The notes under the pieces: generated by a model
What the model was told of the DNA's origin: nothing
The model's database searches: none
Seen by the model: only the letters and a program-made list of their open reading frames with translations
Shown here: one piece after another, positions 2,468 to 62,827 of the stretch
Position numbering within the stretch: the stretch's first letter is position 1
Layout of the letters: every line of letters starts with the position of its first letter
Translations under genes and position numbers: made by a program
NCBI GenBank assembly: GCA_948144175.1
Contig: CANXME010002589.1
Coordinates: 62,001-126,000 of the forward strand
Length of the DNA stretch: 64,000 nt
Direction of reading: 5' to 3'
Source: Closterium sp. NIES-65
Lineage: Eukaryota; Streptophyta; Zygnematophyceae; Desmidiales; Closteriaceae

Positions 2468-2505
2468 CATCACAAAAATGTGTGTGTCTAGAAAACATTC
2501 GACCG
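2468..2505 (+). repeat. Left terminal inverted repeat of element A
   Basis: The first 12 bases, CATCACAAAAAT, are identical to the reverse complement of the right end (22,826-22,837) and to the tip at 53,717. After that, only loose similarity continues for about 25 bp (an AGAAA-type block). Subterminal DNA to about 2,600 has repeated ATCAT-type motifs. Confidence 0.7.
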
Positions 2506-2748
2506 TTTGGTTTGTTACCAAGGGTTTAAAAAACGTTTGACAATCTTTCAGAAATCATCTACATATCATTCGGATATCATTTTGTACTACCCAAATGTTT
2601 TGTTGATGTTTTAGTAATGGATTACCAATGTTTTGATGGTTGATGTGTCAAATGTTGTTTGTTGAGACAATACATAAGGCTTCATGAATAGGAGTATCAC
2701 AATTATACGATGTTATAGTCTAGAAAAACAGTCGCAATTTTGAAGGCA

Positions 2749-5700
2749 TTACCAGATGAACCTATTGAGGAGCTTCACATCAGGGTCTTTGCAGCATGGG
2801 ACGACATGCACGATGCTAAGAATGCAATCTGCATCTACAACTGCATAGTTGTAAGTGCCCTTCGTGGGCAGCAGTCGCTTGCAGCCTGTGTAGCGGCAGA
2901 CGCGCCGATCCTCCGTGTAGTACTCTATGTAGGCGGCCTTTTTTGCCACGCCATCTTTCACGTAATGGAACAGCATCAAGCAACGGCCGTACCAGTTGGC
3001 CCCTTTGCCAGATGGGTTTATGGCCACATCTGAAAAGTGCCTCTCAGCAGGGCTTGCTTTGACAAACTGCCCCTTCTCGGTCCACTCCATTCTGTCGTGC
3101 GGTGGGATTGCCATGGCTGTGTGCACCTGCGAGTAAACAAACATGGAACGCAACAAAACAATGGAAGGGTCGTGTTAGATTTCTCAAGGATGAGTTGCTA
3201 AGTGGTGCGTTGATACAACGGGTTTCCATGGCTGGGTTTTCCCATTACAACTGGTCTAAGACTGCTTGCGTTTAACAGGATGGTAGTGGCAGGTCTGCAT
3301 TGCAGGGGGCAATCTTATGATTCTCACACTGAGCACTTGTTCGCGGATTCCCTCCATGGTCAGCCGCTTCTTCAGGGCGCCCATCGCTTCATCTCCGTGA
3401 AGGAGGACGTAGCTCCTGAATACATCATCGAGGATGTTCCCCACGGTCATCTTCTTGTGTGTCTTTGTCATCACCCGGCGCCCAAGCGTGCAAGCCTGGG
3501 TAGGAAGGTGATGGATGCATGGTTTACATGGCGGCATAACAAGGCAGCAATTGAAGTGCAATGGGGACAACAGGAGGAGGGAGCAGTGATTAGGGACGAG
3601 TGGGTGGGAATAGGGGGCAGTACGAGAGGTCAGAGGGGGCAGCAACAGTAGGCATGTGAATAGGGGGACAAGTGCCAAGCGGGGGGGGGGGCTCAACGAA
3701 TTACAAAGATGGGCTGGATGGTTTAGCCAGTGGTGGAGCAAGGGTGGGAAGTTCGAGTGGGCGAGGGGTATAGCAGGAGGGTTTAGGTTCATGGGTGGAC
3801 AAGCGGGGGATCTTTTGAGAGCAGAACGGGATGTCAAGGGGGGCAGCACGAGGACACTTGGTGGGTGGACAAGTGGGGGAGCATGTGGGGGCAGAATGGG
3901 ATGTCAAGAGGGGCAGCAAGAAGATGGTTGGTCGGTGGACAAGTGGGGAAGCATGTAGGCGACAGAACGGGAAGCAAAGAGGGGCAGCAGGAGGAAGGTC
4001 GGTGGGTGGACAAGTGGGGAAGCATGTGGGGGCAGAACGGGATGTCAAGAGGGGCAGCAAGACGAAGGTTGGTGGGTGGACTAATGGGGAAGCATCTGGG
4101 GGCATTTAAGAGATGACAAGAGGGGGCAACGGGTTAAACATCCATGTGAGGCCCCGTGGGGGAGCATGGGAGTGCAGAACGGGATGTCATAAGTTTATGG
4201 TAGTCGGGTAAGGGCCAGCGGGGCTCAAGAGGATAGGCAAGGTTTAGCTTTAAAACAGGAGGTCATGGAGGGTAGTCGGCGGTTGGAGCAAGGGGGGACA
4301 AGTGGTGGATTGAAACGGCTTTGGGTTGTATTCAGTCTCACCTCCTTCATGGCTGTCTCGTAGGTTTTGTCCCCGCCGGCAGCCCGAGACAGCTGTCGAA
4401 CAACAGCTTGCTCGACATGCTTCTTCACAATCCTATCTTCCACACCCTTCCAGTTGGTGCCCCGAGATGGGCGCTTTACTGTTGTCTTGTGGGATTGCTC
4501 GTACCGGTTCGACGAGTACTCCTGTGGCAATCCGCGTGCGCGGATCGTCGGTGGCAGGTGCGATACAAGATGTACCTTCACAATAAACCACTTCGACTTC
4601 TGGTTGTCGAACGCTAGAACAAGCGCATCGACCATCCTGTATGGAATGTGTTATGGAGGATTGGAAGATACGGGGTTGGCGCAGTGGGGTGGTATGGAGG
4701 GGTTTACTGTGCCCCATACCCTCTCACATCCCCTCCTCCCCTCTCTCATGCCTTTCCGCCTTTTTTCATCCCCTCCCCCCTCCTCTCATATCCTCCCCCC
4801 CCCCCTCTCTCATCCCCTCCTTCCTTCTAATTGCCCCTCCATTCCCTCACTCTGTGCCCCTCCTCTTCTCTCTATGCCCCTCGTTGCCTCTCTCAGCCCC
4901 TCGTTGCCTCTCTCAGCCCCTCGATGCCTCTCTCAGCCCCTCGTTCCCTCTCTCAGCCCCTCATTCCCTCTCTCAGCCCCTCGTTCCCTCTCTCAGCCCC
5001 TCGTTCCCTCTCTCAGCCCCTCGTTCCCTCTCTCAGCCCCTCGTTCCCTCTCTCAGCCCCTCGTTCCCTCTCTCAGCCCCTCGTTCCCTCTCTCAGCCCC
5101 TCGTTCCCTCTCTCAGCCCCTCGTTCCCTATCTCAGCCCCTCGTTCCCTATCTCAGCCCCTCGTTCCCTCTCTCAGCCCCTCGTTCCCTATCTCAGCCCC
5201 TCGTTCCCTCTCTCAGCCCCTCGTACCCTCTCTCAGCCCCTCGTTCCCTATCTCAGCCCCTCGTTCCCTCTCTCAGCCCCTCGTTCCCTCTCTCAGCCCC
5301 TCGTTCCCTCTCTCAGCCCCTTGTTCCCTCTCTCAGCCCCTCGTTCCCTCTCTCAGCCCCTCTATCCCTCTCTCATCCATCCTTCCCTATCTCTGCCCCC
5401 CCTTTCCCCTCTTTCGGCCCCTCGTTCCCTCACTCTGCCCTCTTTCCCTCTCTTTTCCATTCTTTCTCTCTCTTTGCCCTTCTTTCACAAACTTTGCCCG
5501 CTGTCCCCGTTTCTCAGCCCCCATTTCCCACACACGGCCCCTTAGTCCCTCTTTCGGCCCCTCGATCCTCGCTCTGTCCCTCTTTCCCTCTGCGCAAGGA
5601 ACGCACATCCATTCACACTAGACTTACTCGCAGGAGACCTCCTCCATGCGCTCGAGAGATTCATCAGTGTGATACTCAGCCCGGATGAACTCCTTGTACC

Positions 5701-6655
5701 AGTCCGACATGAGCGTGATGGCATGTCGAATATCGGCGCGCTTGGGGAGGTCAATAATGAGGGGCAGCACTTGCATCATGGCACGGTGCTCCGACGCCGA
5801 GAAGCAGGCCGTCGTGGTGAAGTACGCCCACGCGGATGGGAGCCTCAGCAAAGATGCAGGGGTCACTGCCTTGATGATCTTGTAGCGTCTGCACGTACGG
5901 GATGCAATCAGGGTATCGGTTATGGGGGTGTGGGGCAGGGGGGGAAGGGGGAGGGAGGGGGGCAGGCGGGCGAGCAAGGGACGGGTGAAGGGGGGGGGGG
6001 AGTAGTTAGGTGCATCCAATCGCACCCTCATCTCCCCACTTTCTCTCTCACTGCCTCACTTTCCCCCCCTCTGCCCCTCTCTCCCATACTCTATGCCCCA
6101 CCCTTCCTCTCTCTGACCCTCGTTCCCACTCTCTGCCACATGATCACCTCGCTCCGCCCCTCGTTCCCTTTCTCTGCCCCAATTTGCCTCACTCTTACCC
6201 ACTTGCCCTCTCTCTGCCCCAATCTCCCTTTCTCTATTCCCAAATTTCCCCCTTCATTCCTCTCCTGCCCTCCCTATGCCCCGAGTTCACTTCTCTATGC
6301 CCCGCATTCACCTCTCTCTGACCCTCCTTCCCTCGTTATGACCCTCCTTCACTCCGTCGCTATCCCTCTCTCTACCGCGCATTCCTTCTTGGCTTCGTCT
6401 CTTACCCTCCCTCTACCCTGCATTCCTCCTTCGCGGAGTCTGTTTCCCTCTCTATGCCCACTTCCCTATGCCCCGCTCTCACCTCTCTCCGCCCCTCCTT
6501 CCCTCTCTCCGCCCCTCCTTCGGTCTCTCAGCCCCAAATTCCTTCTCTCTTCCCCACTGTCCCTTTCTCTGCCCCACTTTCCCTCTCTTTGCCCCACATG
6601 CACCTTCCTCTGACACTCATTCCCTCATCACGCCCCACCCTCTCTCTCTGCCTCG

Positions 6656-6693
<38 letters not shown>

Positions 6694-9600
6694 CCTCCTG
6701 CATGCTCTCCGCCCGGCATTCCACCACGCTACCCCTCCATCGCCCCGCCTTCTCTCACGCCCCGCCTTCTCTCACGCCCCGCCTTCTCTCACGCCCCGCC
6801 GTCTCTCACGCCCCGCCTTCTCTCACGCCCCGCCTTCTCTCACGCCCCGCCTTCTCTCACGCCCCGCCTTCTCTCACGCCCCGCCTTCTGTCACGCCCCG
6901 CCTTCTCTCACGCCCCGCCTTCGGTCACGCCCCGCCTTCTCTCACGCCCCGCCTTCGGTCACGCCCCGCCTTCTCTCACGCCCCGCCTTCTCTCACGCCC
7001 CGCCTTCTCTCACGCCCCGCCGTCTCTCACGCCCCGCCTTCTCTCACGCCCCGCCTTCTCTCACGCCCCGCCTTCTCTCACGCCCCGCCTTCTCTCACGC
7101 CCCGCCTTCTGTCACGCCCCGCCTTCTCTCACGCCCCGCCTTCGGTCACGCCCCGCCTTCTCTCACGCCCCGCCTTCTCTCACGCCCCGCCTTCTCTCAC
7201 GCCCCGCCTTCTCTCACTCCGCCCCGAAGTCACTTCTATTTGCCCATCCTTCCATCCATCTGCCCCTCCTACCCTCTCTCTGCCCCAGCATACCTCTCGC
7301 TGCCCCACTACCCCTCTCTCTGCCCCACTCTCCCCCTCTATTTGCCCCTCATTCCCTCTTCACGCCCTTCCTTCTCTCACTCTGCCCCGAAGTCACTACA
7401 CTCTGCCCCTCCTGCCTTCTCTTTGCCCCGCAAGTACTTATATCTGCCCCTCCATCCATCCCTCTGCCCATCTTTCCCTCTGGCTGCCCATCTTTCCATA
7501 TATATGCCCCGAATTCCCTCTCTCTGCCCCTCTCCCGCTCTCTCTTGGTGCCATATTCCCTCTCGTTGCCCCTCTTTCCCTCTCTCTGCCTCTGGTTCCC
7601 CCTCGATGCTCCTCTCTCTTGCCCTTATGACCCGCGCCCCACAGTGGTGTAAGGGAAACTTACTCGAGAAGTATCTTCCGTTCTGAGGGTTTCAATTTCT
7701 TCACGAGGCACCTCATTGCATGAAGCCAGAGCCCTGCCTCGATAATGTGCATGATGTCGGGTGTTTGGGCGAGATACGTGTTGCCCCACGAGGTTTTGGA
7801 GAACTCCCAATCCCACAGCAAGGACTGGCAGCAAAGGGGAGGGGAACGAGAAAAAGGGGGCCTGAAGGATCAGGGTGGGAAAGGGGGCCAGGAATGACTC
7901 ACGTGGACAGACTCACCCTTGGACAGCAAGGGTGGTACACGGCGAGGTGTCCACCTCCAGCCTAAGAGGGAGGGGGACGGGAGTTTAGTTGGAGGGGGTG
8001 TTTGTGAGCTCGCGATGCACAAAGGAGAAGTGGGCAGGGGAGAAACTGATCTTACAACCAATTGCATGGGAAGGTGAACGGGGGTGGGACCATGGTACCA
8101 CGGAACCATACAAACGTACGCACACAATCAATAGCGGTACCTTAACGAAGTGGGTCGAATACTTCTTCTTCAGACGGTTCAGTTCCTTCTTGGTTTCCGC
8201 TCCCTCCATTTTCTTGTACACAGCTTTTTGATCTCGGACGGTACGTGGAACGATCTCGTCATCCACGTCGCGAAGATTATCTCTCGTGACCATGCAGATG
8301 GAGCAAGGTCGGAAGGAGCTACATGACATGGTGCACGAAACCTTGTTGGACTCTGGATGGTCGTTCACGACTGAGTACAGCAGCGGGATGGCCACGTACT
8401 CAACCCCGTTGCTGTCCTCCACCTTCAAGCCCCCGCTGCGCGACCAAACATGAAATCATGCCATGTTGGTGGCTTTGGGGTGAGGAAATCAGGACTGAGA
8501 GCACGAAAGCAATGTTTAAAGGGGTCGGGCGTAACGGGACCAGAATGTGCACTCCAAATAACCACTGATGCAATACATGGCAAGGAGACTCTACGAAGCT
8601 ATGACATCTTTTCACGTTTGTAGAAGAACTTTAAGGGCAGCGTACCCGCGGAGCTTGGAAAGAGACTTCAGAGGCTGTAGCATGTATTCCGCCGCCAGTT
8701 GGAACACCCTAATCTTCTCCTCTGGCTTCAGGTCGGAGGGGATGTTAGGGAAGAGCCCCAACAGCTCGGTGCCGCCTTCCAACCAACGCGCCCATTCCGG
8801 TGTGTTACCGAATGACAACACGAAGGGGTGTGCTGATTGCCTACCATTGTAGGACAGGTTGGTTTGATCCGAATAGAGGATGATCGCCAACACGATTGCA
8901 CCGACCTTACGGACGCGGTCCTGTAAAGGGCGGGAGAGATCAGAGGGCTAAACACGGGGATCAGAGAGCAAAGGGCGAAGGTCAGAGAGCAAATGACGGA
9001 GCTAAGAGGGATAAGGGCGAGGGGTCGGAGTGAAACGGGAGGATTTCAGCGTGCAAACCGCGGAGATCACAGAGGAAAGGGCGGGAGATAGAGGGCAAAT
9101 TGCGGGAGATCAGACAGAAATGGGCGGAGACCTGAAAGCGCAGGGGGGAGATCAACGAGCAAAGTGCGGAGATCAGAGGGGAAAGGGCGGAGATCATGGG
9201 GCAAAGGGCGGGAGACTAGAGGGCAAAGGGCTGAGATGAGCGAGCAAAGTGCTGGAGATCGGAGAGAGAAAAAGGGCGGTGATCAGAGAGAGGAAAGAGG
9301 AGGAGGATCAGAGAGAGGAAGGGCTTGAGATCAGAGAGAGGAAAGGGCGGGAGATCATAGGGCAAAGGGCGGATCAGCGAGCAACGGCGTAGATCAGAGA
9401 GCAAACGGCGGAGATGAGCGAGCAAGGGGCGGAGAGTCCGTGAGCAAACGGCGGAGATCAGCGAGCAAAGTGCGGAGAAAGGAGAGAGGAAAGGGCGGAG
9501 ATCAGCGAGCAAACCGTGTAGATCAGAGAGCAAATGGCGGGGATGAGCGATCACATGGCGGAGATGAGCGATCAAACGGCGGATCTAAGAGAGAAAAGGG

Positions 9601-10617
9601 CGATAGGTCTGAGTGAAACGGGCGGATTCCAGTGAGCAAACGGCGGAGATCAGAGTACAAACCCGGCGATCGGGCGGAGGTCTGAGAGCAAGGGGGGGAG
9701 GACCGAGATCAAGAGCGAGGGGCGACAGAGGTCAATGACTTCGAGCTTTAGATGCTCACTAACCCACGCTTTAAGCATCCAGTCAGTATTGCCAGGCGTG
9801 CTGTAGCGTCTTTCACCCTCCACCTTCCACTCCTTCGGCTCGATGATGAATCCGCGTACTGCGGACATCTTCTTGAACATCACCTGTGCCAACTGCAGAT
9901 CGGAAAGAGCATTGTTTCATTGGTTCGTAAGGTAGATGCCATTCAATGAGTTGTTGACTAAGATACGCGACTGGTGAGGGGTGCGGCAGAATTAACTTGG
10001 GCGAGTAACACAAACAGAGAGAACAGCGTGAGACACACCACGTTAATATTGCGAAATCTGAAGGTGAGGAATCCCACTTCATGATCCACAGGGATCTCAG
10101 CCACTTGCCAAGAATGCTCCGGCCCCAACTCGAAGCTGCTTTCGTTCTTCTCAAGGTCCCTGTAAGTCGTCCAGCCTTCTAACTGTTCAACACTAATGCC
10201 CGGGATCCTGAAGATATCTATAAGGTCAGTTATGGCCCCATTCGTAAGCCCGTGTTTCCGTGCCAGAATGCATACTTCAGCCTTAAGATCAACGGGCTCT
10301 TCATCGTCATCCGATACCACCTCAAGGGTACTTTCGCAAGGCGCCTCAGCAGACTGTCCAGGTTTTTCTGAGATGGGAACTACTCTGTAAGCGGTTTCCG
10401 TCAATGGTAACTGCAGATTGGGTCGGGGAAGCGGTGCAGGCAGCAAAACGGGGACGGAATCCGAAGCGGCTCCAAGCTTTTTATGCTTCTGGCTCGACTG
10501 TTTTAAACGCAACTTTCTCTTCTGCGTCAGCTTGCACTTATCGCCATTGGATTGGTGGCTTCGAAGGGTCTGATAGCAGAAGAAGACATCGCCACAGTCG
10601 CACTTTTGACCCTTCAT
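2749..10617 (-). CDS. Plavaka/KDZ-like DDE transposase, ten exons, intact
   Basis: Exons (minus): 10,617-10,042; 9,892-9,764; 8,920-8,646; 8,435-8,141; 7,961-7,917; 7,824-7,664; 5,888-5,628; 4,636-4,342; 3,495-3,328; 3,126-2,749. Acceptors are AG and nearly all donors GTRAG-like. They sum to 2,583 nt, exactly 861 codons, with every junction in phase, so the 860-aa frame is open. The N-terminus has a C2HC-like finger (CDCG...H...C, residues 6-28), then a conserved block (ILARKHGLTNGAI). Exon 3 carries AIILYSDQTNLS (D253), which resembles the SDKTQLT motif of Plavaka transposases. Exon 4 has PCSICMV. Exon 6 has TPDIMHIIEAGLW (D463, H466), like the PD.LH motif. Exon 8 has SSNRYEQSHK (E627), the candidate catalytic Glu. 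The Asp/Glu roles are inferred. Introns 2, 6, 7 and 8 hold minisatellites. A divergent Ulp1 gene starts 0.94 kb upstream. A homologous first exon is at 63,325. Confidence 0.8.
3640..4190. repeat. ~70-bp minisatellite in transposase intron 8
   Basis: The marker GGTGGACAAGTGGGG recurs at about 3,863, 3,934 and 4,004, with a variant at 4,075, a period of 70-71 bp. Neighbouring partial units extend both ways. It lies wholly in the intron between exons 8 and 9. Confidence 0.85.
4870..5372. repeat. 20-bp minisatellite in transposase intron 7
   Basis: Unit TCGTTCCCTCTCTCAGCCCC, about 25 head-to-tail copies in exact 20-bp register with a few substitutions. Because 20 is not a multiple of 3, all three plus frames stay open, giving spurious Pro/Ser/Leu frames of about 400 codons. 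On the transcribed strand it reads as repeated G4 and G3 runs. Confidence 0.97.
5930..6740. repeat. Degenerate CTCTCTGCCCC-type repeats, transposase intron 6
   Basis: Irregular spacing of CTCTCTGCCCC-like blocks, ending in a (CT)n run near 6,658-6,690. It is probably an old, decayed satellite next to the sharp 17-bp array. No coding exon is seen. Confidence 0.65.
6738..7216. repeat. 17-bp minisatellite in transposase intron 6
   Basis: Unit TTCTCTCACGCCCCGCC, about 28 copies. Variants TTCGGTCAC and TTCTGTCAC recur in a patterned way, suggesting multi-unit duplications. It is flanked to about 7,640 by degenerate related sequence. Confidence 0.97.
8950..9710. repeat. Degenerate 20-25-bp minisatellite in transposase intron 2
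   Basis: Repeated GGCGGAGATCAGAGAGCAAA-like units with variable length and many substitutions, filling nearly the whole intron between exons 2 and 3 (8,921-9,763). Confidence 0.85.
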
Positions 10618-11560
10618 TTTTCAAACGTGATGTTGTGAGTTACGTAGGGAGCTTGTGCCTTTCATGAGATATAGCACCAACGTATTACTGTCGAGATGGT
10701 GTCAACATTGAAATCTACGTCCAGCAGCATGTCATGGATGGAGGGAATCTGTCCCAACAAACATACCCGGGCTGGCTCTGGAAATGAAAAGGGTTCACAA
10801 GAAATATGTTACTTAGCGTGAGAACCTACTCCACCCCGCATTGCAAAGGCGAATGAGCAGCTCCACGGTATGAAAATTTGATGTTTAGCGGATCACGAAG
10901 GTAACCGTGTGGTGTGCGAAGACAGTCACCGTGGGGTTAATAGTGTTCCGCAACTCCCTAGACACCTAAAAATATCTGGACACTACAGCATACTGGATGT
11001 CGAGTGTGCAGGGTTGACGTGGTGGGTGGCGAAACACCAAACCCGGAAGTGATTCTGACAACCCTAAAATTCCAACCAATCACGTATGATTACGTCATGT
11101 GTTGCTCAAGCCCAGGCAGGGTGATGAACCCTAATCGACCAAACTGCATTTCGTCTCAAAAATCCGACCGTTGAAAAGAGTCTCATCGTGCTGGATCTAC
11201 GTGTTTCTCGAGCTAATTCCGGAAACATTGGAGCGCACAATTCTTGGACCACAGCTGACTGGGCATTCCAGACCAGCGAGAATCAGAATCAGTCACTAGT
11301 GAAGGGAGGCAATCAAGCGTTAGCAACCATCCGCGTTCATGTCAGTCCACGTCATTTGGAATCTGACGGACCCAAAGGCAGCACCGAAACGTGGGTGTCG
11401 AAACTGTGTTGCGGAACCACATCATTGGGCGATGCCTCTTCAACCCCCCATACACCAGAGAGCTCACACAGTTCCAGGGATAGCACCAGCAGCCAGAACA
11501 CACTCCGTTGCATGACGATCTGAATCTCCAGTACCGCCAGCTCGTAGGTGATTCCATTCC
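10618..11560. promoter_or_regulatory. Intergenic space between divergent transposase and Ulp1 genes
   Basis: The start codons of the transposase (10,617, minus) and the protease (11,561, plus) face away from each other over 943 bp, so a shared bidirectional promoter is likely by position. I can point to no TATA box with confidence. Around 11,380-11,560 both strands have open stretches (a plus frame reading LFNPPYTRELTQ; an 89-codon minus frame), so an extra upstream protease exon is possible. Confidence 0.35.
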
Positions 11561-12698
11561 ATGGCTTCACGAGATGCAGCTTGTGATTTTCCCTTTCACC
11601 CGATTTCAATGCCTTTCCCATTTGGCGGAGCGTGGCTAGACGTCAGTGAGGAACACGCTAATAAGCTTAAACCCGGAGAATGGGTGACCGGAATCGTCAT
11701 CGACTGGCTGGGAGTGTGAGTTATGAGTTTAATTTCGTGAGAAGCCAAAGTAGGACTACTTTGTAGGTCTAAGACGCTTATAATGCGTTATGTTTCAACA
11801 ACCACAGGATGCTTCAATATGAGCACGGTCGCGACAACAAGATGTGGCTGTACAGTGGATCCTACTTCTGGAACTACGCTGGAAGGGACATTGCGAAGCG
11901 GGGTAACGCCCATCTTTTTGGGCTGGGGATATTCGACTACAACTATATTCTCGTCCCGATCAACAGCGAGTGGGTGTCAATCGCTTGAATTCCAGTCATT
12001 ATTTCGATCAACGACTATTTCTGACAGATACTCGCTCATCGCTTGTTGTAGGTATCATTGGAGCTTGGTCGTCATTGAGATAATCCCCAAACCAGATGAG
12101 AACATACCCATGACCTGCGTTCTCTGGCATGCGGATTCGTACGGATCCCACGAATCCGTGGACGCGCCTTTGCGAAGGTACTGTCAGAGGACGTCATGGG
12201 TGTGCATTCTATCGTAGAAGCCCGATCTCTAATCTTCCATTTGTGCTCCGTCATTCAGGTACTTAAGAAACGAGGTTATGAGGGTCTCAACTTGGATCCT
12301 TGATTCGGACGCAGATGCTTGGGCTGCGAGCATCCCTCTGCGCGTCGTCAAGGTGACCTCTGATCCCGTTGTCTTAAATGCCAGCTCTCAATCAACGACC
12401 CACCTTTTGACAGCCACGTGCATGTGCGAATGTGTGTTGACAGATTCCGTCGCAGACTAATGAGAATGACTGCGGTGTGTTCACGATGCGCGTGATGCAC
12501 ACACTTGTTGAAAACAAGTTCCATAACCTGGGTGCGTGTAAGCTTGTTGGTACACCGAGTAAGTGGCGCCGTCAGTACCTTCGCGACCTGAAGAAGTGGT
12601 CTGTCTTCTTCCTCGAAAATGCGTTGAACCAACCTCGAAACCAGGAGGAGGAGGTGGATGAGGAGGATGAGAAGGTGCAGGCGGATGTAGTGGAGTAG
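11561..12698 (+). CDS. Ulp1-type (C48) cysteine protease, five exons
   Basis: Exons: 11,561-11,715; 11,808-11,969; 12,052-12,177; 12,259-12,352; 12,444-12,698. They total 792 nt, in phase throughout, 263 aa. The fold order of Ulp1/SENP SUMO-processing proteases is visible: LKPGEWVTGIVIDW, then LVPINSE followed by HWSLVVIE (H108), LWHADSYGSHE (D134), and PSQTNENDCGVF (Q183, C189). This is the complete His-Asp-Gln-Cys set. A short acidic tail (EEEVDEEDEK) ends the protein. Ulp1-like genes are known cargo of several eukaryotic DNA transposon groups. Here it would cleave SUMO or a SUMO-like peptide, or process an element protein; the substrate is inference. The N-terminus is uncertain because further upstream exons are possible. 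In element B only the last exon survives (62,618-62,827). Confidence 0.8.
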
Positions 12699-12734
12699 GT
12701 GGAGGAGGAGTAGGAGGAAGAGGTGGAGGAGGAG

Positions 12735-13195
12735 GAAGAGGAGGCATGTGAAGCACGTGGGGCATGAATGGCGTGTGAGGTGTTTGAGGCATGTGATGCA
12801 TCGAGCCGGCATGTGAGGCATACGAGGTATACGAGGCATGAGAGGCAGAGCTCATGTGAGGAACATGATGCACGACGGGACATGTGAGGCACGTGAGGCA
12901 TGCGAGGCACGTGAGGCATGAGTGGCATGTGGGGCATTGTGCTGACATGTGATGCATGTGAGGCATACGAGGCATGGGAGGCGGAGCTCAGGTGACTCCC
13001 GTGAGGCACGTGTGGCATGTGAGGCACGTGATAAATCTGAGGCACGTGAGGCATGTGAGGCACGTGAGGCATGAGTGGCATGTGTGGCATCGGGTGAGGT
13101 ATCGTGGTGGCATGTATTCATGTGAGGCGTGTGAGGCACGTGAGGCATGTGAGGCATGTGTGGCACTTGCGGCACGTGATGTCGGTATGAGAGGC
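12735..13195. repeat. 9/18-bp minisatellite
   Basis: GTGAGGCATGTGAGGCACGT-like units repeat irregularly just after the Ulp1 stop. Because the period is near a multiple of 9, open His/Met/Pro-rich frames appear on the minus strand; I regard these as compositional. Confidence 0.85.
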
Positions 13196-13199
13196 GCAC

Positions 13200-13368
13200 C
13201 TTGTTATTGATGATGACCCAGCAGTCAACTCTCTTGTTAAGCCTCGCTACCTCCTCCTTGTATACACCTTGGTTTCTTAGGCAGCCTGTCAGTGGGATGA
13301 ACTTGTCGATAAAGTATGGATAAACGGGCAGGAGATATGGCAGATGAATAATGTCCGGCGAATGTGGT
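13200..13368 (-). other. Possible orphan coding exon
   Basis: The minus strand is open and looks coding: HLPYLLPVYPYFIDKF followed by LNKRVDCWVIINNK, with a possible AG acceptor at about 13,369 and a GTGCGC donor after 13,200. It lies antisense between Ulp1 and the unknown-family gene. I see no matching sequence in the equivalent part of element B (61,000-62,600) and no partner exons nearby. It could be a gene relic or chance. Confidence 0.25.
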
Positions 13369-13394
13369 CTTGTGGACCAACTGGATAGAGAACA

Positions 13395-13735
13395 AGGAGG
13401 TGTAGAGGACGGAGAGGTGCTGAGAACGGAGAGGTGCAGAGAAACGAGAGGTGTAGAGGACGGAGAGGTGCAGAGAACGGAGAGGTGCAGAGAACGGAGA
13501 GGTGCAGAGAATGGAGAGGTGCAAAGAACGGAGAGGTGCAGCGGACGGAGAGGTGCAGAGGACGGAGGAGAGGGGCAGAGAACGGAGAGGTGCAGGGAAC
13601 GGAGAGGTGCAGGGAAGGGAGAGGTTTAGCGAATGGAGAGGTGCAGTGGACTGGGTGAGGTAGTGAACAAAGAGTTGCAGAGGTTGTAGAGGTGCAGATT
13701 ACGGAGAGGTGCACATAATGGAAAGTGGACTTGGT
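13395..13735. repeat. 17-bp minisatellite
   Basis: Unit GGAGAGGTGCAGAGAAC, about 19 copies, some degenerate, between Ulp1 and the unknown-family gene. Confidence 0.93.
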
Positions 13736-13739
13736 CATT

Positions 13740-15250
13740 GCACTCAGCCATAGTACATTGACCTTGTCCCAGTGACTAGCTTTGCAAAAGGCAACTGGCT
13801 TGCATGTGCTGTTTTGCCAGGGAGATCAACAACTGTCTCAGCTGCATGTAACCACGTGTCTTCATGCTATTCTTCAGTAATGAAAATCACACGTCTATAC
13901 ATGAAGATAATCACAACCCATAGTAAACTGTAACGGTGAATTTGACAGGATTGCTTGGCTGTTCAAAATTTAAGCTACGGTGCATAGAGCAGAGATTTTA
14001 ATCGATTAACGACATCACTGTGTGCATCCTACTGATTTGTGTTGGTTATTTGTTAATGTTACGTGTGCAATTGAGTGAACGAACGAGAATTGCACTATCG
14101 AAGCAAGAGTACAATGAGCGAAGGCATGAGCGAAGGATTATATAGTGAAACAATAGTGGTAACGGTACTGGACTGTGGTTGTCGCGCGACGAGCCTGGGA
14201 CTGAGGTTGGGAAAGTGTCGAAGCGTAGGCCCGGAGCGCGGGTTACCAGCCGAGCCGTGAGGTCGGGATGCGATGTGCGAAAAGGGCGGGATGATGAATG
14301 ATGCGATGGTCGCGAGTGGTAACGGTGCTGACTGAGGTGCTACAGTGATGTACGCGTTGAGCAGGGACGCGAAGTAAGGAAAAGGGAATTTCCTTACAGT
14401 TAAAAACCAGTGTGTCCCCATGGAATATAAAGGCAGGACTGGACTCTATGAACCAATTGAGCGGATTTCCATGACGATTATACACCCAATTTCGAACAGG
14501 GTAGTACATGCCAATACTGTAGCATAGCGAGACTAGGCGTTTATACGCGCTGGAAATTCGGATGCGCCTCACACCCCACGCCTACGACACCTGCGCTCAT
14601 CACACCACTGAGCCGTTGCGACCGTGTCGCAATCGCTGTGCGGCGACTCACGTCGCCGCGATTTCAGGTGTTCCCTTGCACAATCACGCTGTGTCGACCT
14701 GTTGTACGTGGCTGCACGACGTTGTGCGACCACGAGCCCACCTTCCCTCTCTCGTGTAGTTCGCTGAGTAGTCGCAGCTGCTCATCGGGCATGGTACGTG
14801 ACTATTGTGATAATATACGTGCGGCACCTGTCGCGTTGCCTGTAATTCAGCAACACGAGGGAGTCGGGCAGCTCAAACTCTCACTCGTTGCCGCTGGTTT
14901 ATTTATCATAGGCCGTCCCTTTCGCACTTAGCGGCAAAACAATCAGCAGCGCGCCGTAGGTATCCAACGGACCATACAGTCAGTGGCGCGAACACGAGTG
15001 CAGTTTCTGGAAACCTGGCCAAAGCGTCATTACCTGTGACCGTGACCGTCTAGCTTCTTCCCATCTACAGTAACAGCCCATGTACCTGTGCTCTGGAGAG
15101 GCGGTGGATCTCGAAGGACCATCGTGCTTCTCTAAACCGCATGTTCAAACCCTCATCAGCCTGGTGCTGCTCATACGTGGTGGTTGGATCACGTACACCT
15201 GCTCCACCACCGTGTCTGGTACTCGGACCTCAGCAACCAACTGACATTTA
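13740..15250. other. Spacer upstream of the unknown-family gene
   Basis: Unique, moderately AT-rich sequence to about 14,050, then mixed. No coding exon is supported. It contains a perfect 8-bp hairpin at 14,640-14,659 (GCGGCGAC, loop TCAC, GTCGCCGC). It probably includes the promoter of the gene starting at 15,251, but I can name no element. Confidence 0.5.
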
Positions 15251-18200
15251 ATGCTAGTATCCGCTGGTGAGTCAAGTCACTATCTAATTCCTAACTTCCG
15301 TAACACGCCCGTCATGGGTGTGAACCTAGATCCAACAGTTCAAGCTCAAACCCTTAATGCGCAAGTAGGGGTTGTTGAGTTGCCTAGTTCTACCAAATCG
15401 CCAGATGAGAAGAGATATATGGAGGTAGTCACACCAGAGAAAACGGCCCAAGTCGTCAACGAGTATCGTAGGAGACATCCGTCCAAAGCTTGCAACAACA
15501 GCAAGTCAGGGGGCGATTCTTCATCTGAAAACGACTCCAGCCGTGACGGCGATGTGGAGTCATACGCAAACAAGGCTATTTCATCGCCCCCGAAACGGAG
15601 GGAACGGCGTATCAAGAAGTTGGAAGAATGCAACCCCAAAATAGGCCAGAAAGGTACGTGTTCACCGGATCCCACCAGCAATTATATGGCTCCTTGCGTA
15701 ATTTCTGGGATGCCTATAGGTTGTTACCGCGTATCCCGCTTACGTCACATGTGACTACTCATTTTTCTCTTTTTATGCTTTTCACAGCCGGGTCAGAAGA
15801 GAAGGGTCACTGCCGTCCGAGAGCAAAGCGCAGGAAGGGGAGGAGTGCGGTGGAGAGGGGCAGTTCTTTCCATCGTCAGGATAAGGTGGCATTGGCCGGT
15901 GGCGACGACGTGCTACAGTCTGGGCCTGCCAAAGACGGGGAGGGTAAGGGACGAGGGGCTGTAGGCGCTAAGGGCGACAGTGATGGGGAGCGCAAGGGAC
16001 GAGGGGCTGTAGGCGCTAAGGGCGACAGTGATGGGGAGCGCAAGGGACGAGGGGCTGTAGGCGCTAAGGGCGACAGTGATGGGGAGCGTAAGGGACGAGG
16101 GGCTGTAGGCGCTAAGGGCGACAGTGATGGGGAGCGTAAGGGACGAGGGGCTGTAGGCGCTAAGGGCGACAGTGATGGGGAGCGTAAGGGACGAGGGGCT
16201 GTAGGCGCTAAGGGCGACAGTGATGGGGAGCGTAAGGGACGAGGGGCTGTAGGCGCTAAGGGCGACAGTGATGGGGAGCGTAAGGGACGAGGGGCTGTAG
16301 GCGCTAAGGGCGACAGTGATGGGGAGCGTAAGGGACGAGGGGCTGTAAGCACTAAGGGCGACAGTGATGGGGAGCGTAAGGGACGAGGGGCTGTAAGCAC
16401 TAAGGGCGACAGTGATAGGGAGCGTAAGGGATGAGGGGCTGTAAGCACTAAGGGCGACAGTGATGGGGAGCGTAAGGGACGAGGGGCTGAAGTCACGTAC
16501 AAGCGGCGCAAGGTGGTTGACACGGGCGGTCACGACAGAAAAATGAGGAAGGCTCGCCAGGGACGGAAACGGTACGCTTCACCCAGATCGTCGTCCGGTT
16601 CCGAGGAGGGATCCAGCGACGGGGAATCTGGTAGTTCATCTGGCAGCGAATATGGGGACGAGGAGGAGGAGGAGGAGGAGGAGGAGGAGGAGGAGGAGGA
16701 GGAGGAGGAGAGTGAGGACCAAGATCTGGAGCCGGAAAGCGAGGAGGCGGATGAGGTGCGTCCCAAGAGAAAGGGGCGTGATCGGAAGGCCAAGAAGGGC
16801 ATTCCTAAGAGGAACCGTGACAAGGGTCGGGACAAGGGCCGTAAGGGGCGCGACAGTCGTGGGAAATCGCATGGCAACAACGGTCGCCGGCGTGTGGTTT
16901 CCCAGGTTGTCCGTGTGCGCCCCAAAGTGAAGCCCGAGCCTGAATTCTATGCGGAGATGGGAGTGAAAGCAACTGCTGCTCCTACTGGATATCTTGATCG
17001 TAAAGACCAGACCCGAAGGAGGCGTGACGATCGCGAGGACCCTTATGCTGCTCTCAGAGGGCCATCGCTAAATGCTGGGAAAGGAGCAGACCCGTTGCCT
17101 ACAGGGTCATGGCGTCATAACAAGGAGGGAAAAGACCCACTTGCGAAGCGTCTCGAGACACGGGATTCACCGGATCTTGATAAAGACGACTTTAAGCCCA
17201 AACGGTACGCTGACCCAACGGCCGCAGCAGCAAACGACGGTGTGGCAGGTGGGATGTGGGCAAACACATTGGGTGATTGTGGCGGAGTTATGGCTGGCTC
17301 TCCGTACGATGAACGTGACGAAAGGGGCGACGACTACACCTGGAAAAGGGATCCACACACGAACGAGGGGAGGGGTGAGAGCATGTGCACGCCCGGTGCA
17401 TCTGGTCGTCTCAATCCGGCTCGCCCCAAGACGGTGGAGCAGCTCACGCGAGAGCTTGAGCTAGCAAACAGCGAACTAGCAACCCTCAAGGCAAAACCAG
17501 CTTGCAATGGCGTCAAAAACCGCGGACCCCCTTCCCAAGTTCCTCCTCTGGCACCTTTGGCGAGCGACCCATCATCTGGGGGCCTCAGTCCCGAGGTAGC
17601 TGATGAGAGCACCCCGACAGAGGGCCAGCCCATTCGGCGCAGGCATGGAATGCCCACTCTCGAGAAACTGAGGGTGAGTGTGAGGGGCACTCTGCGTTGC
17701 TTTCATGCTCATTCGTAACCCCCTGCTAGCATCTTGCTATTCATGCTCATGTTAACCCCCCTTGCTAGCCCCACATTGTCCAGCATGTCGTTCCAAACCC
17801 CCTCTGCCTGCACTACGTCTGTTCTTGCTCATTCGTAACCCCCTTGCCAGCCCCACATTGTCATGGTTGTTAATTATAACCCCCTCTGCCTGCCCCACAT
17901 TTGATATGCTTGCCCCTCGCCACTGATTTCTTCTTGCCCTACCATCCCGTCCATTGTAGCTTCATTTTGTTGAGGCGCGGGACCGGATGTGCATGGAAGC
18001 GCCGGACCATGCGGTTGACTGGTACCCATCATTTGAACAGCGACTACAGGTTCTGTATGGCGTCATCAGTGAGACCCACATCATTTCTTACATGCAGCTG
18101 AAAGAGACAATGAAGGATCAGAACGTCGTTGCCGTCTTTAAACATGTGTGGACAGCATGGAAGAATGAACGGGGATTTCAAGTCAAGCGCGGTGTGCTCG

Positions 18201-21200
18201 AGAAGTTTGGAGTGAAGGTGGAGGGACTGCGTGCATCGCAGATCAAGCTGAGCACGAAGAGGAAGTGGAGGTTGTGGCGAAAATACAAACCGAGTGAGTC
18301 TTGACAATCAGCTATCCCGCTGCAACTACGTTGGTTTCGTCGCGTTGCTCATTCCCTTTGTCTTTTCAGATAGCACTTTTATTTCCTAAACCTGGCCCCA
18401 TCATGTCATGGTCACAAACCCGTCTGCCCTGCATTCCCCACCGCAGGTTCCTCGCCCAAACCCCTCTGCCCTGCCTGGCCCACCTCAGGATCGTAAACCC
18501 AAACTCTTCTGCCCTGCCTGCCCCACCTCAGGATCCTCACCCAAACCCCTCTGCCCTGCCTGCCCCACCTCAGGATCCTCACTCAAACCCCTCTGCCCTG
18601 CCTGCCCCACCTCAGGATCCTAAACCCAAACCCCTCTGCCCTGCCTGCCCCACCTCAGGATCCTCACCCAAACCCCTCTGCCCTGCCTGCCCCACCTCAG
18701 GATCCTCACCCAAACCCCTCTGCCCTGCCTGCCCCACCTCAGGATCCTAAACCCCAACCCCTCTGCCCTGCCTGCCCCACCTCAGGATCCTCACTCAAAC
18801 CCCTCTGCCCTGCCTGCCCCACCTCAGGATCCTCACTCAAACCCCTCTGCCCTGCCTGCCCCACCTCAGGATCCTCACCCAAACCCCTCTGCCCTGCCTG
18901 CCCCACCTCAGGATCCTAAACCCAAACCCCTCTGCCCTGCCTGCCCCACCTCAGGATCCTAAACCCAAACCCCTCTGCCCTGCCTGCCCCACCTCAGGAT
19001 CCTCACCCACTCTGCCCTGCCTGCCCCACCTCAGGACCCTAAACCCAAACCCCTCTGCCCTGCCTGCCCCACCTCAGGATCCTCACCCAAACCCCTCTGT
19101 CCTGCCTGCCCCACTACTTGGACCCTAACCCCCAGCCCCTCTGCCCTGCCTGCCCCACCTCAGGATCCTAAACCCAAACCCCTCTGCCCTGCCTGCCCCA
19201 CCTCAGGATCCTCACCCAAACCCCTCTGCCCTGCCTGCCCCACCTCAGGATCCTAAACCCAAACCCCTCTGCCCTGCCTGCCCCACCTCAGGATCCTCAC
19301 CCAAACCCCTCTGCCCTGCCTGCCCCACCTCAGGACCCTAAACCCAAACCCCTCTGCCCTGCCTGCCCCACCTCAGGATCCTCACCCAAACCCCTCTGCC
19401 CTGCCTGCCCCACCTCAGGATCCTAAACACAAACCCCTCTGCCCTGCCTGCCCCACCTCAGGATCCTAAACCCAAACCCCTCTGCCCTGCCTGCCCCACC
19501 TCAGGATCCTCACCCAAACCCATCTGCCCTGCCTGCCCCACCTCAGGATCCTAAACCCAAACCCCTCTGCCCTGCCTGCCCCACCTCAGGATCCTCACCC
19601 AAACCCCTCTGCCCTGCCTGCCCCACCTCAGGACCCTAAACCCAAACCCCTCTGCCCTGCCTGCCCCACCTCAGGATCCTCACCCAAACCCCTCTGCCCT
19701 GCCTGCCCCACCTCAGGACCCTAAACCCAAACCCCTCTGCCCTGCCTGCCCCACCTCAGGATCCTCACCCAAACCCCTCTGCCCTGCCTGCCCCACCTCA
19801 GGACCCTAAACCCAAACCCCTCTGCCCTGCCTGCCCCACCTCAGGATCCTCACCCAAACCCCTCTGCCCTGCCTGCCCCACCTCAGGTTCCTCGCCCAAA
19901 CCCCTCTGCCCTGCCTGCCCCACCTCAGGATCCTCACCCAAACCCCTCTGCCCTGCCTGCCCCACCTCAGGATCCTAAACCCAAACCCCTCTGCCCTGCC
20001 TGCCCCACCTCAGGATCCTCACCCAAACCCCTCTGCCCTGCCTGCCCCACCTCAGGATCCTCACCCAAACCCCTCTGCCCTGCCTGCCCCACCTCAGGAT
20101 CCTCACCCAAACCCCTCTGCCCTGCCTGCCCCACCTCAGGATCCTCACCCAAACCCCTCTTCCCTGCCTGCCCCACCTCAGGATCCTAAACCCAAACCCC
20201 TCTGCCCTGCCTGCCCCACCTCAGGATCCTCACCCAAACCCCTCTGCCCTGCCTGCCCCACCTCAGGATCCTAAACCCGAACCCCTCTGCCCTGCCTGCC
20301 CCACCCCAGGATCCTCACCCAAACCCCTCTGCCCGGCCTGCCCCTTCTTACGATGCCCAAACATACCTCCAAACACTGCCTGCCCCACTACTTGATGATA
20401 AAACATACCCCGTGCTTCCCCACATGGTTGTGCCTCCTTGTAGGAGGGAATGAGCGGGTCAGCTCGTGGGGGAACGACAGATCCGGGCTCCCTTTTGCCA
20501 ACGCCCGGTTTGTGGATGCGGTGAAGGCATCATTTCGGGATTACGCTGTTGGGCGCAGGCTGGCCCTAAAGACGTACCACATAGCCTGGTCACTCATGGT
20601 GGTGAGACTGGTTTTGTAAATCACATGTACTTGCCCTAATGCTCAATCTTTTCTATTGCACGTGAACGACTTGGGACCCTTGGGGGCTAACACCGGTAAC
20701 ATGCAACTCTGCCTTGCTGCTGGTCCCTGTAATCCAAACCCGTTTCAGATTGATCAAGGCTTGGCGCGCTTCAAGGAGACCGACATGAACCTGCCGAACT
20801 CCCACAGGAAAAACACTAGATGGATGAGGAGTTTGACTCGGGGGGTGCGGAGGATTGTAAGGGATCACTTTACACGCCACACCCCCGTGTACAACGCAGA
20901 GTTGCAGGGCTTCAAGTGGGGCACGCGTGGGCTCTATGTACATGAGTCCGGGTTTCAGGCGTTCCGGGGGACGGCTCAGGCTGATAACGAGGAGGAGGAG
21001 GAGGAGGAGGAGGAGGAGCAAGAGGATTTCAGTGAGAAGGAGGAGGAGGAGGAGGAGCAAGAGGAGGAGGAGCAAGAGGAGGAAGAGGAGGAAGAGGAGG
21101 AGGAGGATGAGGATGAGGAGGATGAGGAGGAGGATGAAGAGGAGGAAGAGGAAGAGGAGGATGATGAGCAGGGGGGGAAGGAGTTGAGAGGGAGCAGAAG

Positions 21201-21243
21201 GCACAAGAGAGGCAAAAACATGGGTGGCAGGAGGGGAAAGTGA
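15251..21243 (+). CDS. Transposon-borne acidic protein of unknown family, one in-frame stop
   Basis: Exons: 15,251-15,653; 15,788-17,673; 17,960-18,293; 20,444-20,601; 20,749-21,243. They total 3,276 nt (1,092 codons), in phase, except for one TGA at 16,432-16,434 (codon 350) where a repeat unit has TGA for CGA. Parts in order: Ser/Asp-rich N-terminus with EYRRRHP; a 48-bp (16-residue) K/G/D/E repeat; SSGSE acidic block; basic RKAKKG stretch; DPYAAL; a short coiled coil (VEQLTRELELANSELATLK); RRRHGMP. Then come conserved exons 3-5: RMCMEA, WKNERGF, LKTYHIAW, NSHRKNTRW, GFKWG and VHESGF, and a long poly-Glu tail. All five exon boundaries match the gene at 56,979-60,975, which lacks the tail. 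I recognise no known family. Nuclear DNA- or chromatin-associated function is suggested only by composition. An alternative start is 15,314. The stop makes this copy broken unless it is an assembly error. Confidence 0.75.
15945..16490 (+). repeat. 48-bp in-frame coding minisatellite
   Basis: Eleven copies of a 16-residue unit (KGRGAVGAKGDSDGER). The first eight are nearly identical; later ones read GAVSTKG. The start of the eleventh carries the TGA stop. It lies in exon 2 of the unknown-family gene. Confidence 0.95.
16659..16709 (+). repeat. GAG trinucleotide run (poly-Glu)
   Basis: Near-perfect (GAG)n encoding about 17 Glu residues inside exon 2 of the unknown-family gene. Confidence 0.9.
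18415..20350. repeat. 42-bp satellite filling intron 3 of the unknown-family gene
   Basis: About 45 copies of a 42-bp unit containing CCTCTGCCCTGCCTGCCCC and CTCAGGATCCT, alternating between a TCACCCAAACC and a TAAACCCAAACC variant. It makes this intron about 2.15 kb, against 183 bp at the same position in element B. Confidence 0.96.
20991..21170 (+). repeat. GAG/GAA/GAT coding low-complexity tract
   Basis: Encodes a Glu/Asp-rich C-terminal tail of about 60 residues in the last exon. The paralogue at 56,979 ends soon after the same VHESGF motif and lacks this tail, so the tail grew by trinucleotide expansion. Confidence 0.9.
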
Positions 21244-21414
21244 TGTGCAGGCGGACAAGGGGGCAAGCAGGACGGGTGGCAGTGGAGGAAGTTGGAGAGG
21301 CATCGGGTGAGGCAGGAGGGTATCGGTTAACGGGGAGAGCAGGGGCGTTTAACGGGTATGGATAAAGGAAAGGCATCAGGATAGGCAACAAGGGTAAGAA
21401 GCCGAGAGTCAACA

Positions 21415-21965
21415 AGGAAAGGCAGCAGGGGAGGCAACATAGAAAGGCACCACGGGAGGCAACAGGGAGAGGGAGCAGGGAAGGCAACATAGAATGACAG
21501 CAGGGGAGGCAACAGAGAAAGGCACCACGGGAGGCAACAGGGAGAGGGAGCAGGGAAGGCAACATAGAATGACAGCAGGGGAGGCAACAGAGAGGCAGAA
21601 TGGGAGGCAACATAGAATGGCAGCAGGGGAGGCAACAAAGGGAGGCAGCAGGGGAGGCAACATTAAATAGCAGCAGGGTAGGCAACAGAGAGAGGGAGTA
21701 GGGGAGGCAACATAGAATGGCAGCAGGCGAGACAACAGAGAGAGGCAGCATGGGAGGCAACATAGAATGGCAGCAGGGGAGGCAACAAAGGGGCAGGGGA
21801 GGCAACAAAGGGAGGCGGTAGGGGAGGCAACATTGAACAGCAGCAGGGTAGGCAACAGAGAGAGGCAGCATGGGAGGCAACTAGAATGGCAGCAGGGGAG
21901 ACAACAAAGGGAGGCAGCTTGGGAGGCAACATTGAATGGCAGCAGGGGGGAGGCAACATCCCGTG
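21415..21965. repeat. ~25-bp minisatellite 3' of the unknown-family gene
   Basis: GGCAACATAGAATGGCAGCA-type units alternating with GGCAACAGAGAGAGGCAGCA variants, with visible multi-unit duplication around 21,430-21,600. It lies between the stop codon and the right end of element A. A looser GGCAGCA-rich region continues to about 22,200. Confidence 0.9.
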
Positions 21966-22689
21966 GCAGTAGGGGAGGAGTGCATATTTAATATGCGACC
22001 GTTTTGCAGGTTGCCTGGGTGGCGGAGGAGCAGTGGAGGCAGCATGTGAGGCAGTAGTGGAGGAGCAGTGGAGGCAGCATGAGTAGCATCAGGGGGGGGA
22101 GGCCGGGAGGTAAGAGGGGAGTTCCAGGAGAGGCCCAATGTGGAGCAGCAGGAGCAGGCATGAGAGGAGACCGCATAGGGGGCAGCAGCGTGGAGACAGC
22201 AAGGGGACAGGAGTATAAGCAAGAGAGGAGACAGGAAGTGTGTAGCCGTGCAGGTTAGCATTAGATGGAGCAGTATCTGTAGTCAAGAACTCTCTAGGCC
22301 AAGAGCTGGAGAGATGGGGCGGGGCTGCATCCGATGATGGCTTGCGAAGTAGGTAGGAGGATGGTGCAGATTAATCCACCCTAGCAGGACTACGCAACGC
22401 GTGTTTAGGCAGCTGTTTTGTGTGCCAAGCCAACTCTGTAATGAGATTAATAATCATTGAGCAATGCATTCATGATGTGCGTGTACACCTAAGAATGGCT
22501 AATAGACCTTCCATCAAACAACGAGAATCACTTGATAAAGGTTCATATACAATCTTCTTGAACTTTGGTCCTAAGCTCTGCTAAAGAGTATATGAGTGGA
22601 AAGTAATCTCCCTGAACTCTCCGAACGAAGTCTTATACATCTCCGAAGAAACTCAGACAGACCCTAATCTGAAGGTAATACAAACATGT

Positions 22690-22837
22690 CATCACCTGCA
22701 AAGCATTCGACAAAGCATTCGAAAAAATGTTTATACTTTCACCGAAAAGCGTTTTGGCCCCTACGTTTTAAAAGCATTTGAAAATACTTCACCACAACTT
22801 TTTACAATAGGTTTCTGGTCATATGATTTTTGTGATG
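22690..22837 (-). repeat. Right terminal and subterminal repeat of element A
   Basis: Read on the minus strand it starts CATCACAAAAATCATATG and aligns with the left end of element B (53,717-53,870) over about 150 bp. Shared blocks include GTAGGGG, GAAAGTAT and ATGCTTTGCAG. Repeated ATGCTTT motifs look like subterminal transposase-binding repeats; that role is inference. Confidence 0.75.
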
Positions 22838-53716: not shown

Positions 53717-53870
53717 CATCACAAAAATCATGTGGCGGAAAACCTCTCATGAAGTGTTTTTGTTGTGTTTTTGCAGATGATTTGAAGATGTAGGGGTCGG
53801 TACTTTTTTCGAAGAAAGTATCGAACTTTTTCCAGATGATCTGTCAGATGCTTTGCAGATGATTGGAGTG
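53717..53870 (+). repeat. Left terminal and subterminal repeat of element B
   Basis: Tip CATCACAAAAAT, then GTAGGGG, GAAAGTAT and repeated CAGATGAT/ATGCTTTGCAG motifs shared with 22,690-22,837 in reverse complement. Confidence 0.75.
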
Positions 53871-56950: not shown

Positions 56951-56978
56951 TTCCTTGCAATTCCACCATTCCTCTCCT

Positions 56979-62617: not shown

Positions 62618-62827
62618 TTAGGGGTATCGATCAGCCTGAATCAAAGAGCTTGCTTTGTCATAGACACAGGACCACCTAGCCAAATCGTGACGATATTGGC
62701 GCCTCCACTGTCTTGGCGTCCCGACCAAGTCACACGCATTCAAACTGCCAAACTTGGTCTCGACAAGCGTATGAATGACACGCATCACAAAAACGCCACA
62801 GTCATTCTCGTTGTCCTGCTGACGCAC
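62618..62827 (-). pseudogene. Ulp1-type protease, last exon only
   Basis: The minus strand reads VRQQDNENDCGVFVMRVIH and QWRRQYRHDLARW to a stop at 62,618, with an AG acceptor at 62,828. It is clearly the Cys exon of the protease at 11,561-12,698. The 500 bp upstream, up to the transposase start at 63,325, holds a minisatellite and no His or Asp exon, so the catalytic set is incomplete. It is best read as a deletion remnant, although the exon itself is undamaged. Confidence 0.75.

Follow-up and report, generated by a model that had tools for sequence, protein, structure and literature searches.

Closterium sp. NIES-65, a zygnematophyte (streptophyte) alga, carries large DNA transposons in which a previously unrecognised gene accompanies those for the transposase and for a Ulp1-type (C48) cysteine protease. 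We analysed this third gene in a stretch of 64,000 nucleotides (the window; C2291:62001–126000, with all coordinates below given as window positions) that holds element A, of about 20.4 kb, and part of a relative, element B. Judging by its transposase domain and its termini, element A is a PlavakaB-type DNA transposon. We regard it as practically certain that the third gene genuinely belongs to the element and has been kept by selection; our leading reading of what it does, tentative and held with a little less than even confidence, is that it is a component of a Closterium lineage of PlavakaB transposons whose protein most likely serves as an element-specific nuclear accessory factor, similar to TNPA or VANC. 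We establish the gene with its predicted exon structure, show that it lies within the element and is linked with its neighbours, document the constraint on its core between copies A and B, and weigh against this background what the protein may do.

A conserved five-exon gene in two elements

In element A, a transposase gene on the minus strand is followed by a Ulp1 gene on the plus strand and then by the third gene, which lies where a preliminary description of the window had put it (15251–21243, plus strand) and has five exons. Its splice sites were placed by eye and by script from the DNA alone, i.e., the exons are predicted (Table 1); RNA-seq has been published for NIES-64 and NIES-65 (PMC10407611). 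All four introns occupy identical positions in copies A and B, as had been claimed, and have identical phases (1, 0, 1, 0), and the conserved C-terminal core that had been noticed in both copies amounts to 50% identity over 243 codons. Across this core, the proportion of nonsynonymous differences (pN) was 0.333 and that of synonymous differences (pS) 0.779, against shuffled baselines of 0.73 and 0.71, respectively. With pN far under its baseline and pS at baseline, amino acids are constrained and synonymous sites saturated. A low-complexity artefact was considered and rejected, as the core is ordinary sequence and is conserved at the protein level with saturated synonymous sites.

From N to C terminus, the predicted protein comprises a short part encoded by exon 1, a repeat-rich part encoded by exon 2, a core of 240 residues encoded by exons 3–5, and, in copy A, an acidic tail. 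Exon 2 of copy A contains 48-bp repeats, an acidic serine-rich stretch, basic stretches, coiled-coil-like heptads, and an RRHGMP motif, and the likeness between A and B extends, by eye, to parts of exons 1 and 2 as well (the heptad stretch and RRHGMP). Three heptads have hydrophobic residues at positions a and d—V, L, L and L, A, L in copy A; M, L, I and L, A, L in copy B—and basic clusters are present in the protein. The preliminary description had called the protein acidic, a term that suits the poly-Glu tail of copy A, with an isoelectric point (pI) of 4.05, but not the whole proteins (6.8 for copy A; 6.6 for exons 2–5 of copy B) or the core of copy A, which is basic (10.5). The core of one relative, P0009, has a pI of 9.45.

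Minisatellites occur in introns and spacers of both elements (4803–5453, 6741–7217, 8936–9655, 18415–20344, and 54240–56958), with units that differ among these introns and spacers and measure 17 to 42 bp. Among A-type copies of the third gene, the spacing of exons 3 and 4 ranges from about 1.35 to 3.3 kb.

Element A and its termini

With exons joined by eye, the element A transposase matched PF18759 in Pfam at 81.3 bits (cut-off 26.3, E 9.8e-23), and the protease matched PF02902 at 42.9 bits (cut-off 20.7, E 6.5e-11), so that the third gene does stand beside a transposase and a Ulp1 gene, as the preliminary description had it. In the protease, the motifs YHW, HAD, and NDCG, seen by eye, hold what we take to be the His, Asp, and Cys of the catalytic triad. 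The transposase of element B lies outside the window, and the PF18759 assignment concerns element A.

Exact copies of the terminal 12-mer lie at 2468, at 22826 (reverse), and at 53717 and nowhere else in the window, and these three sites are both ends of element A and the right end of element B; a looser terminal pattern gave three matches over the window versus 1.42 expected, which is not significant by itself. Termini of the form CATCA..TGATG are present at 2468 and 22837 in element A and at 53717 in element B. On both outer sides element A is flanked by AT, an identity of 2 bp that can arise by chance. Fungal PlavakaB elements are described as having CATCA..TGATG termini and target duplications of 2–3 bp (PMC12730594).

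The right ends of elements A and B are 71% identical over 147 aligned columns. In a survey of A-type copies, comprising 20 loci fetched from the genome and the window copy, a right end was located in 13 of the 20 fetched loci, with homology breaking off at the identical base against nine different flanks. Nine of these 13 ends read GATG (on eight different flanks), and four read GACG (on one common flank). Copies with common flanks are probably segmental duplications, so not all copies represent independent insertions. The left boundary of element A was judged from the window copy alone. At one fetched locus (L019, position 716–730), the end of a B-type element lies close to an A-type element, indicating that the two types can nest or abut.

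Linkage with Ulp1 and transposase genes across the genome

Genome searches with the cores of copies A and B gave at least 200 and at least 194 matches, respectively, with 150 candidates scored in each. Among the matches listed, to which all counts of third-gene and Ulp1 places refer, the A core gave 102 exon 3 places and the B core 35 further ones (137 together), whereas Ulp1 places numbered 150, of which 140 scored at least 51 bits and 10 were more distant. The third genes form groups with approximately 96%, 62%, 59%, and 50–55% identity to copy A and with 79–99% and approximately 65% identity to copy B.

A third gene lay downstream on the same strand within 20 kb at 116 of the 140 stronger Ulp1 places, and 116 of the 137 third-gene places had Ulp1 upstream on the same strand within the same distance—counts that exceed the number of independent insertions because some copies share flanks. 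When positions were shifted by +100, −100, +200, and +300 kb as a control, 6, 6, 0, and 0 pairs were found. Sorted by bands of Ulp1 bit score, pairing was 32/32 (B-like), 17/22, 29/36, 34/39, 2/7, and 2/4, and none of the 10 distant Ulp1 places had a third gene downstream.

Linkage with the transposase was assessed with a list of 104 third-gene places, two of them exon 5 matches. Among transposase copies at 95–98% identity, 28 of 33 had a third gene within 40 kb, always in opposite orientation and 5′ of the transposase; among those at 86–91%, the figure was 25 of 27, with the third gene in opposite orientation in 23 and 5′ of the transposase in 22. The chance of such proximity is approximately 1% per point. 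Co-occurrence with Plavaka transposases, which had been put forward as a check on the gene, was thus found in the A group and among the relatives closest to it. Closterium is also rich in other Plavaka lineages, given at least 133 PF18759 matches in the genome, many of them in frames of 500–800 residues; no third gene was seen at eight PF18759 loci retrieved with short flanks of 1.5 kb.

Between the A group and the group at 62%, the transposase stretch is approximately 90% identical, the last Ulp1 exon approximately 67%, and exon 3 of the third gene approximately 62%. As different stretches are being compared, these values give only an indication that the cassette of Ulp1 and third gene may change faster than the transposase, or may be exchanged. 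The fast divergence of the third gene is reminiscent of the fast-evolving TNPA-type proteins (PMC2613891).

State of the copies

Copy A in the window has an in-frame TGA (16432–16434) in the 48-bp repeats of exon 2, which is absent from 18 other readable copies. Exon 2 could be read by means of its boundary strings in 19 of the 21 surveyed copies and was open in 16 of them, with 12 different lengths from 1772 to 2162; the failures were the window copy and two fetched loci (L028 and L032). All splice strings of exons 3–5 were found in 15 of the 21, and the spliced core was free of stops in all of these except L019 (14/15). With exons considered singly, 17 of the 20 fetched loci yielded exon 3, and 14 yielded exons 4 and 5.

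Two relatives of the third gene, at C2187:651375–652472 and C1769:1595892–1596989, have exons 3 and 5 reported with equal frame length (376 residues), which suggests copies that lost introns. Several possibly intron-less matches stand close together on contig C2187.

Relatives and known families

In line with the earlier remark that no family was recognised, Pfam returned no family for the cores of copies A and B, and PDB sequences gave no match for the B core. Pfam searches of 14 third-gene proteins gave nine single-member matches, the best at E 0.36, which is chance level. We also looked for a known host domain found mainly outside transposons, and none matched. Kinship with DUF6532 was considered, and Pfam gave no match to it; the idea that the core consists of two halves repeating each other was rejected (hhalign probability 0.1).

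The search for homologues in algal and fungal genomes proposed in the preliminary description was run as a word-based search of protein databases. Three such searches, based on shared 5-residue words within restricted length ranges, recovered 18 clusters related to the third gene, from Closterium alone (strains NIES-53, 54, 64, 65, 67, 68, and Naga37s-1), and nothing outside Closterium among 5.8 billion proteins at word-search sensitivity, which distant homologues elsewhere may escape. One NIES-65 database protein, P0016, is near-identical to part of copy A. The third gene is undescribed in the available portions of the literature searched on Plavaka, on SUMO-protease transposons, and on Closterium genomes, mostly non-subscription text and with Repbase excluded.

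A possible role for the third protein

We propose that the third protein may act in the nucleus as an element-specific accessory factor. Its conserved C-terminal core would recognise repeats of its own element, either the subterminal 12-mers or the internal minisatellites; the short heptad stretch could permit self-pairing, and the charged N-terminal part might contact other proteins. In this way the protein would assemble the transposase at the element ends, open the chromatin of the element, or do both, comparable to TNPA of En/Spm and VANC of VANDAL, and the co-encoded Ulp1 protease would work alongside it.

Several lines of evidence favour such a factor. The gene belongs to a unit with sharp ends, as right-end homology ends at one and the same base in 13 of 20 loci, against nine flanks; it is linked with Ulp1 and transposase genes, its core is constrained, exon 2 is open in 16 of 19 copies, and the core is stop-free in 14 of 15. 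The heptads in both copies, the basic clusters, and the basic cores of copy A (pI 10.5) and P0009 (9.45) would suit a protein that pairs with itself and binds DNA. At the right ends of both elements, a 12-mer is found at approximately 52, 111, and 123 bases from the terminus, with a fourth at 134 (two mismatches in A), and its variants differ between the elements, being mostly TTCG or TTTG in A and TCTG in B. Such matching distances and differing variants may point to sites recognised by each element's own protein. Sites with at most one mismatch number three at the right end of A, four at the right end of B, and none at the left end of A, for a pattern chosen after inspection.

Other observations weigh against this role. 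The left end of element A, which has no site at up to one mismatch, has four at two mismatches, a number reached by 11 of 300 shuffles; moreover, the common positions of the 12-mers may reflect ancestry, the right ends being homologous, and the pattern is post hoc. No known DNA-binding domain of any kind was matched in Pfam or among PDB sequences, the fold search was empty (lowest E 0.8), and structure prediction, which the preliminary description had recommended, was run and gave two models too poor to use (predicted local distance difference test scores of 55.1 and 38.0). The core of copy B is neutral (pI 6.8). An intact frame in exon 2 argues only weakly for selection, because the 48-bp and GAG repeats shift its length by threes regardless. 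Among up to 17 near-identical A-type copies, eight of nine core substitutions relative to the window copy are replacements: constraint is seen between A and B, but none is visible within the recent A burst, where a rate test based on nine core substitutions in total says little. As for linkage, at 16 of the 140 Ulp1 places a third gene lies no more than 20 kb away but is oriented differently or sits on the opposite side, and of 30 B-type places, four lie within 40 kb of a listed transposase, none of them with the layout expected. Several copies have flanks in common, so that the linkage counts do not measure independent insertions, and rapid divergence is common to Ulp1 too and could reflect cassette swapping.

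A second possibility, which we consider somewhat unlikely, is that the protein is a partner or substrate of Ulp1 without DNA specificity, either bringing the SUMO protease to complexes with which the host silences or repairs DNA, or being kept SUMO-free by it. It would account for the same-strand pairing at 116 of the 140 listed Ulp1 places and at all 32 B-like ones, for the greater divergence of both Ulp1 and the third gene than of the transposase between two groups, and for the acidic Ser-rich stretches of exon 2, which recur in several relatives; in addition, copy A has 10 psi-K-x-E/D motifs versus 3.9 in shuffles. However, eight of these 10 motifs are copies of one repeat unit, accompanied by two others, and copy B has three versus 1.8. 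No conserved psi-K-x-E/D acceptor site was found in the core, where the best column covers three of five rows and is absent in copy A, and SUMO cleavage by the element's Ulp1 is itself a prediction from the domain match.

More specific, and in our view decidedly unlikely, is the proposal that Ulp1 and the third gene form a portable anti-silencing module, in which the third protein would recognise the fast-changing repeats of the element and bring the SUMO protease, undoing SUMO-dependent silencing. If true, the module would be a convergent counterpart of the Arabidopsis VANDAL VANC/KIU system, in a Plavaka element of the sister lineage of land plants.

C48-type proteases process capsid proteins in adenoviruses and Polintons, and the third protein could by analogy be a structural, polyprotein-like partner, i.e., a nucleoprotein or coat-like component that the C48 protease would process. 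The protease gene upstream on the same strand and the large, repetitive, charged N-terminal part would fit; we nevertheless hold this to be improbable, as no capsid-like match was obtained in Pfam or PDB and the element showed no evident gene for packaging or replication, although no systematic scan for such genes was made. Least probable is a captured host gene or passenger without function for the element: the lack of homologues found outside Closterium and of a known function, the three of 20 fetched A-type loci without exon 3 (one of which is truncated by the end of its contig), the recent A copies without constraint, and the 21 of 137 listed places without a listed Ulp1 partner would allow it, whereas the existence of several groups (approximately 50 to 98% identity) with Ulp1 linkage at most places in each main group, the strong constraint between A and B, and the fact that nothing identifies the 21 unlinked places as host genes all argue against it.

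Comparison with known systems

Returning to the accessory factor that we favour, Plavaka elements are now related to CACTA elements (PMC12730594), and like TNPA of maize En/Spm and TNP1 of Antirrhinum Tam1, the third gene would provide a second element-encoded protein beside a CACTA-related transposase (PMC2613891). TNPA binds subterminal repeats, transposition requires it along with TNPD, and it varies greatly from element to element (PMC2613891). Little similarity between elements is a further point in common with TNPA and TNP1, and the putative subterminal repeats at the ends may be another (PMC2613891). Unlike TNPA, the third gene is separate and not a splice product, and the two are likened by description, with DNA binding here a prediction.

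In Arabidopsis, VANC strips DNA methylation from its own kind of element, and its targets are often tandem repeats (PMC5735166); some VANC genes carry a Ulp1 domain (PMC13317346). The third gene resembles VANC of VANDAL, including the Ulp1-carrying KIU forms, as a presumed accessory protein with Ulp1 possible in the family and with tandem repeats that differ between relatives (PMC5735166, PMC13317346). This likeness, too, is one of description, and there are differences: VANDAL is a Mutator-like element (MULE) and not a Plavaka, and Ulp1 is here a separate gene. The function of the captured Ulp1 domain in plant MULEs has been called unknown (PMC13317346), and a constant partner gene gives a handle on the purpose of a transposon-borne Ulp1.

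Fungal Plavaka elements share the transposase family and the PlavakaB termini with element A, and their 2–3 bp target duplications may have a counterpart in the AT that flanks it; the accessory gene that some of them carry, however, is a TET/JBP dioxygenase, and the main text of the study mentions neither Ulp1 nor protease (PMC12730594). The Plavaka giant repeats of Amoebidium are likewise large and carry additional genes next to their Plavaka transposase; there, by contrast, the additional genes are tandem and intron-poor, and many encode tyrosine recombinases (PMC11244446). In Nuwa, a Harbinger element, a Myb/SANT protein that binds DNA is encoded as a helper beside the transposase (PMC12730594), whereas no Myb/SANT match was found by Pfam in the 14 third-gene proteins.

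Accessory genes of CACTA-related elements are known in plants and fungi; the third gene matches no Pfam family or PDB sequence, and it is kept beside Ulp1 in more than 100 listed places of one genome. In the databases, its Closterium proteins are labelled "unnamed" or "hypothetical" and are for the most part incomplete. They are transposon proteins, and their presence could raise the apparent copy numbers of genes in a group of species in which copy-number variation is a subject of study.

Features of the window

Table 1. Coordinates of the third gene, of elements A and B, and of associated features (window positions)
Feature	Position	Strand	Remarks
Third gene copy A, exon 1	15251..15653	+	predicted
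Third gene copy A, exon 2	15788..17673	+	predicted; 48-bp tandem repeats, in-frame TGA 16432-16434
Third gene copy A, exon 3, conserved core begins	17960..18293	+	predicted; 102 places listed genome-wide
42-bp minisatellite within copy A intron 3	18415..20344	+	
Third gene copy A, exon 4	20444..20601	+	predicted
Third gene copy A, exon 5, last part of core, then poly-Glu tail	20749..21243	+	predicted
Third gene copy B, exon 1	60975..60633	-	predicted
Third gene copy B, exon 2	60490..58971	-	predicted
Third gene copy B, exon 3	58374..58041	-	predicted
Third gene copy B, exon 4	57857..57697	-	predicted
Third gene copy B, exon 5, without poly-Glu tail	57251..56979	-	predicted
Element A, PlavakaB-type DNA transposon (by domain and termini), ~20.4 kb	2468..22837	.	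terminal inverted repeat CATCACAAAAAT; putative 2-bp target duplication AT
Plavaka transposase gene, element A, several exons	2752..10617	-	PF18759; splicing approximate, by eye
Ulp1-type (C48) cysteine protease gene, element A, several exons	11552..12695	+	PF02902; splicing approximate, by eye
Element A right terminus with 12-mers like GCATTYGAMAAA	22691..22837	+	homologous to element B end
Element B right terminus, four TCATCTG-type 12-mers	53717..53863	+	element B left end outside window
Element B Ulp1 gene, last exon (69-residue stretch)	62621..62827 (C2291:124621-124827)	-	sequence match

Between the two elements, the reverse strand at 24100–24200 has, by eye only, a leucine-rich-repeat-like look. 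Frames of 210 and 140 residues, without a Pfam match, lie in a neighbouring tandem array at 25845–47600, which consists of approximately five units of 4.25 kb whose sampled stretches are mostly 99–100% alike.

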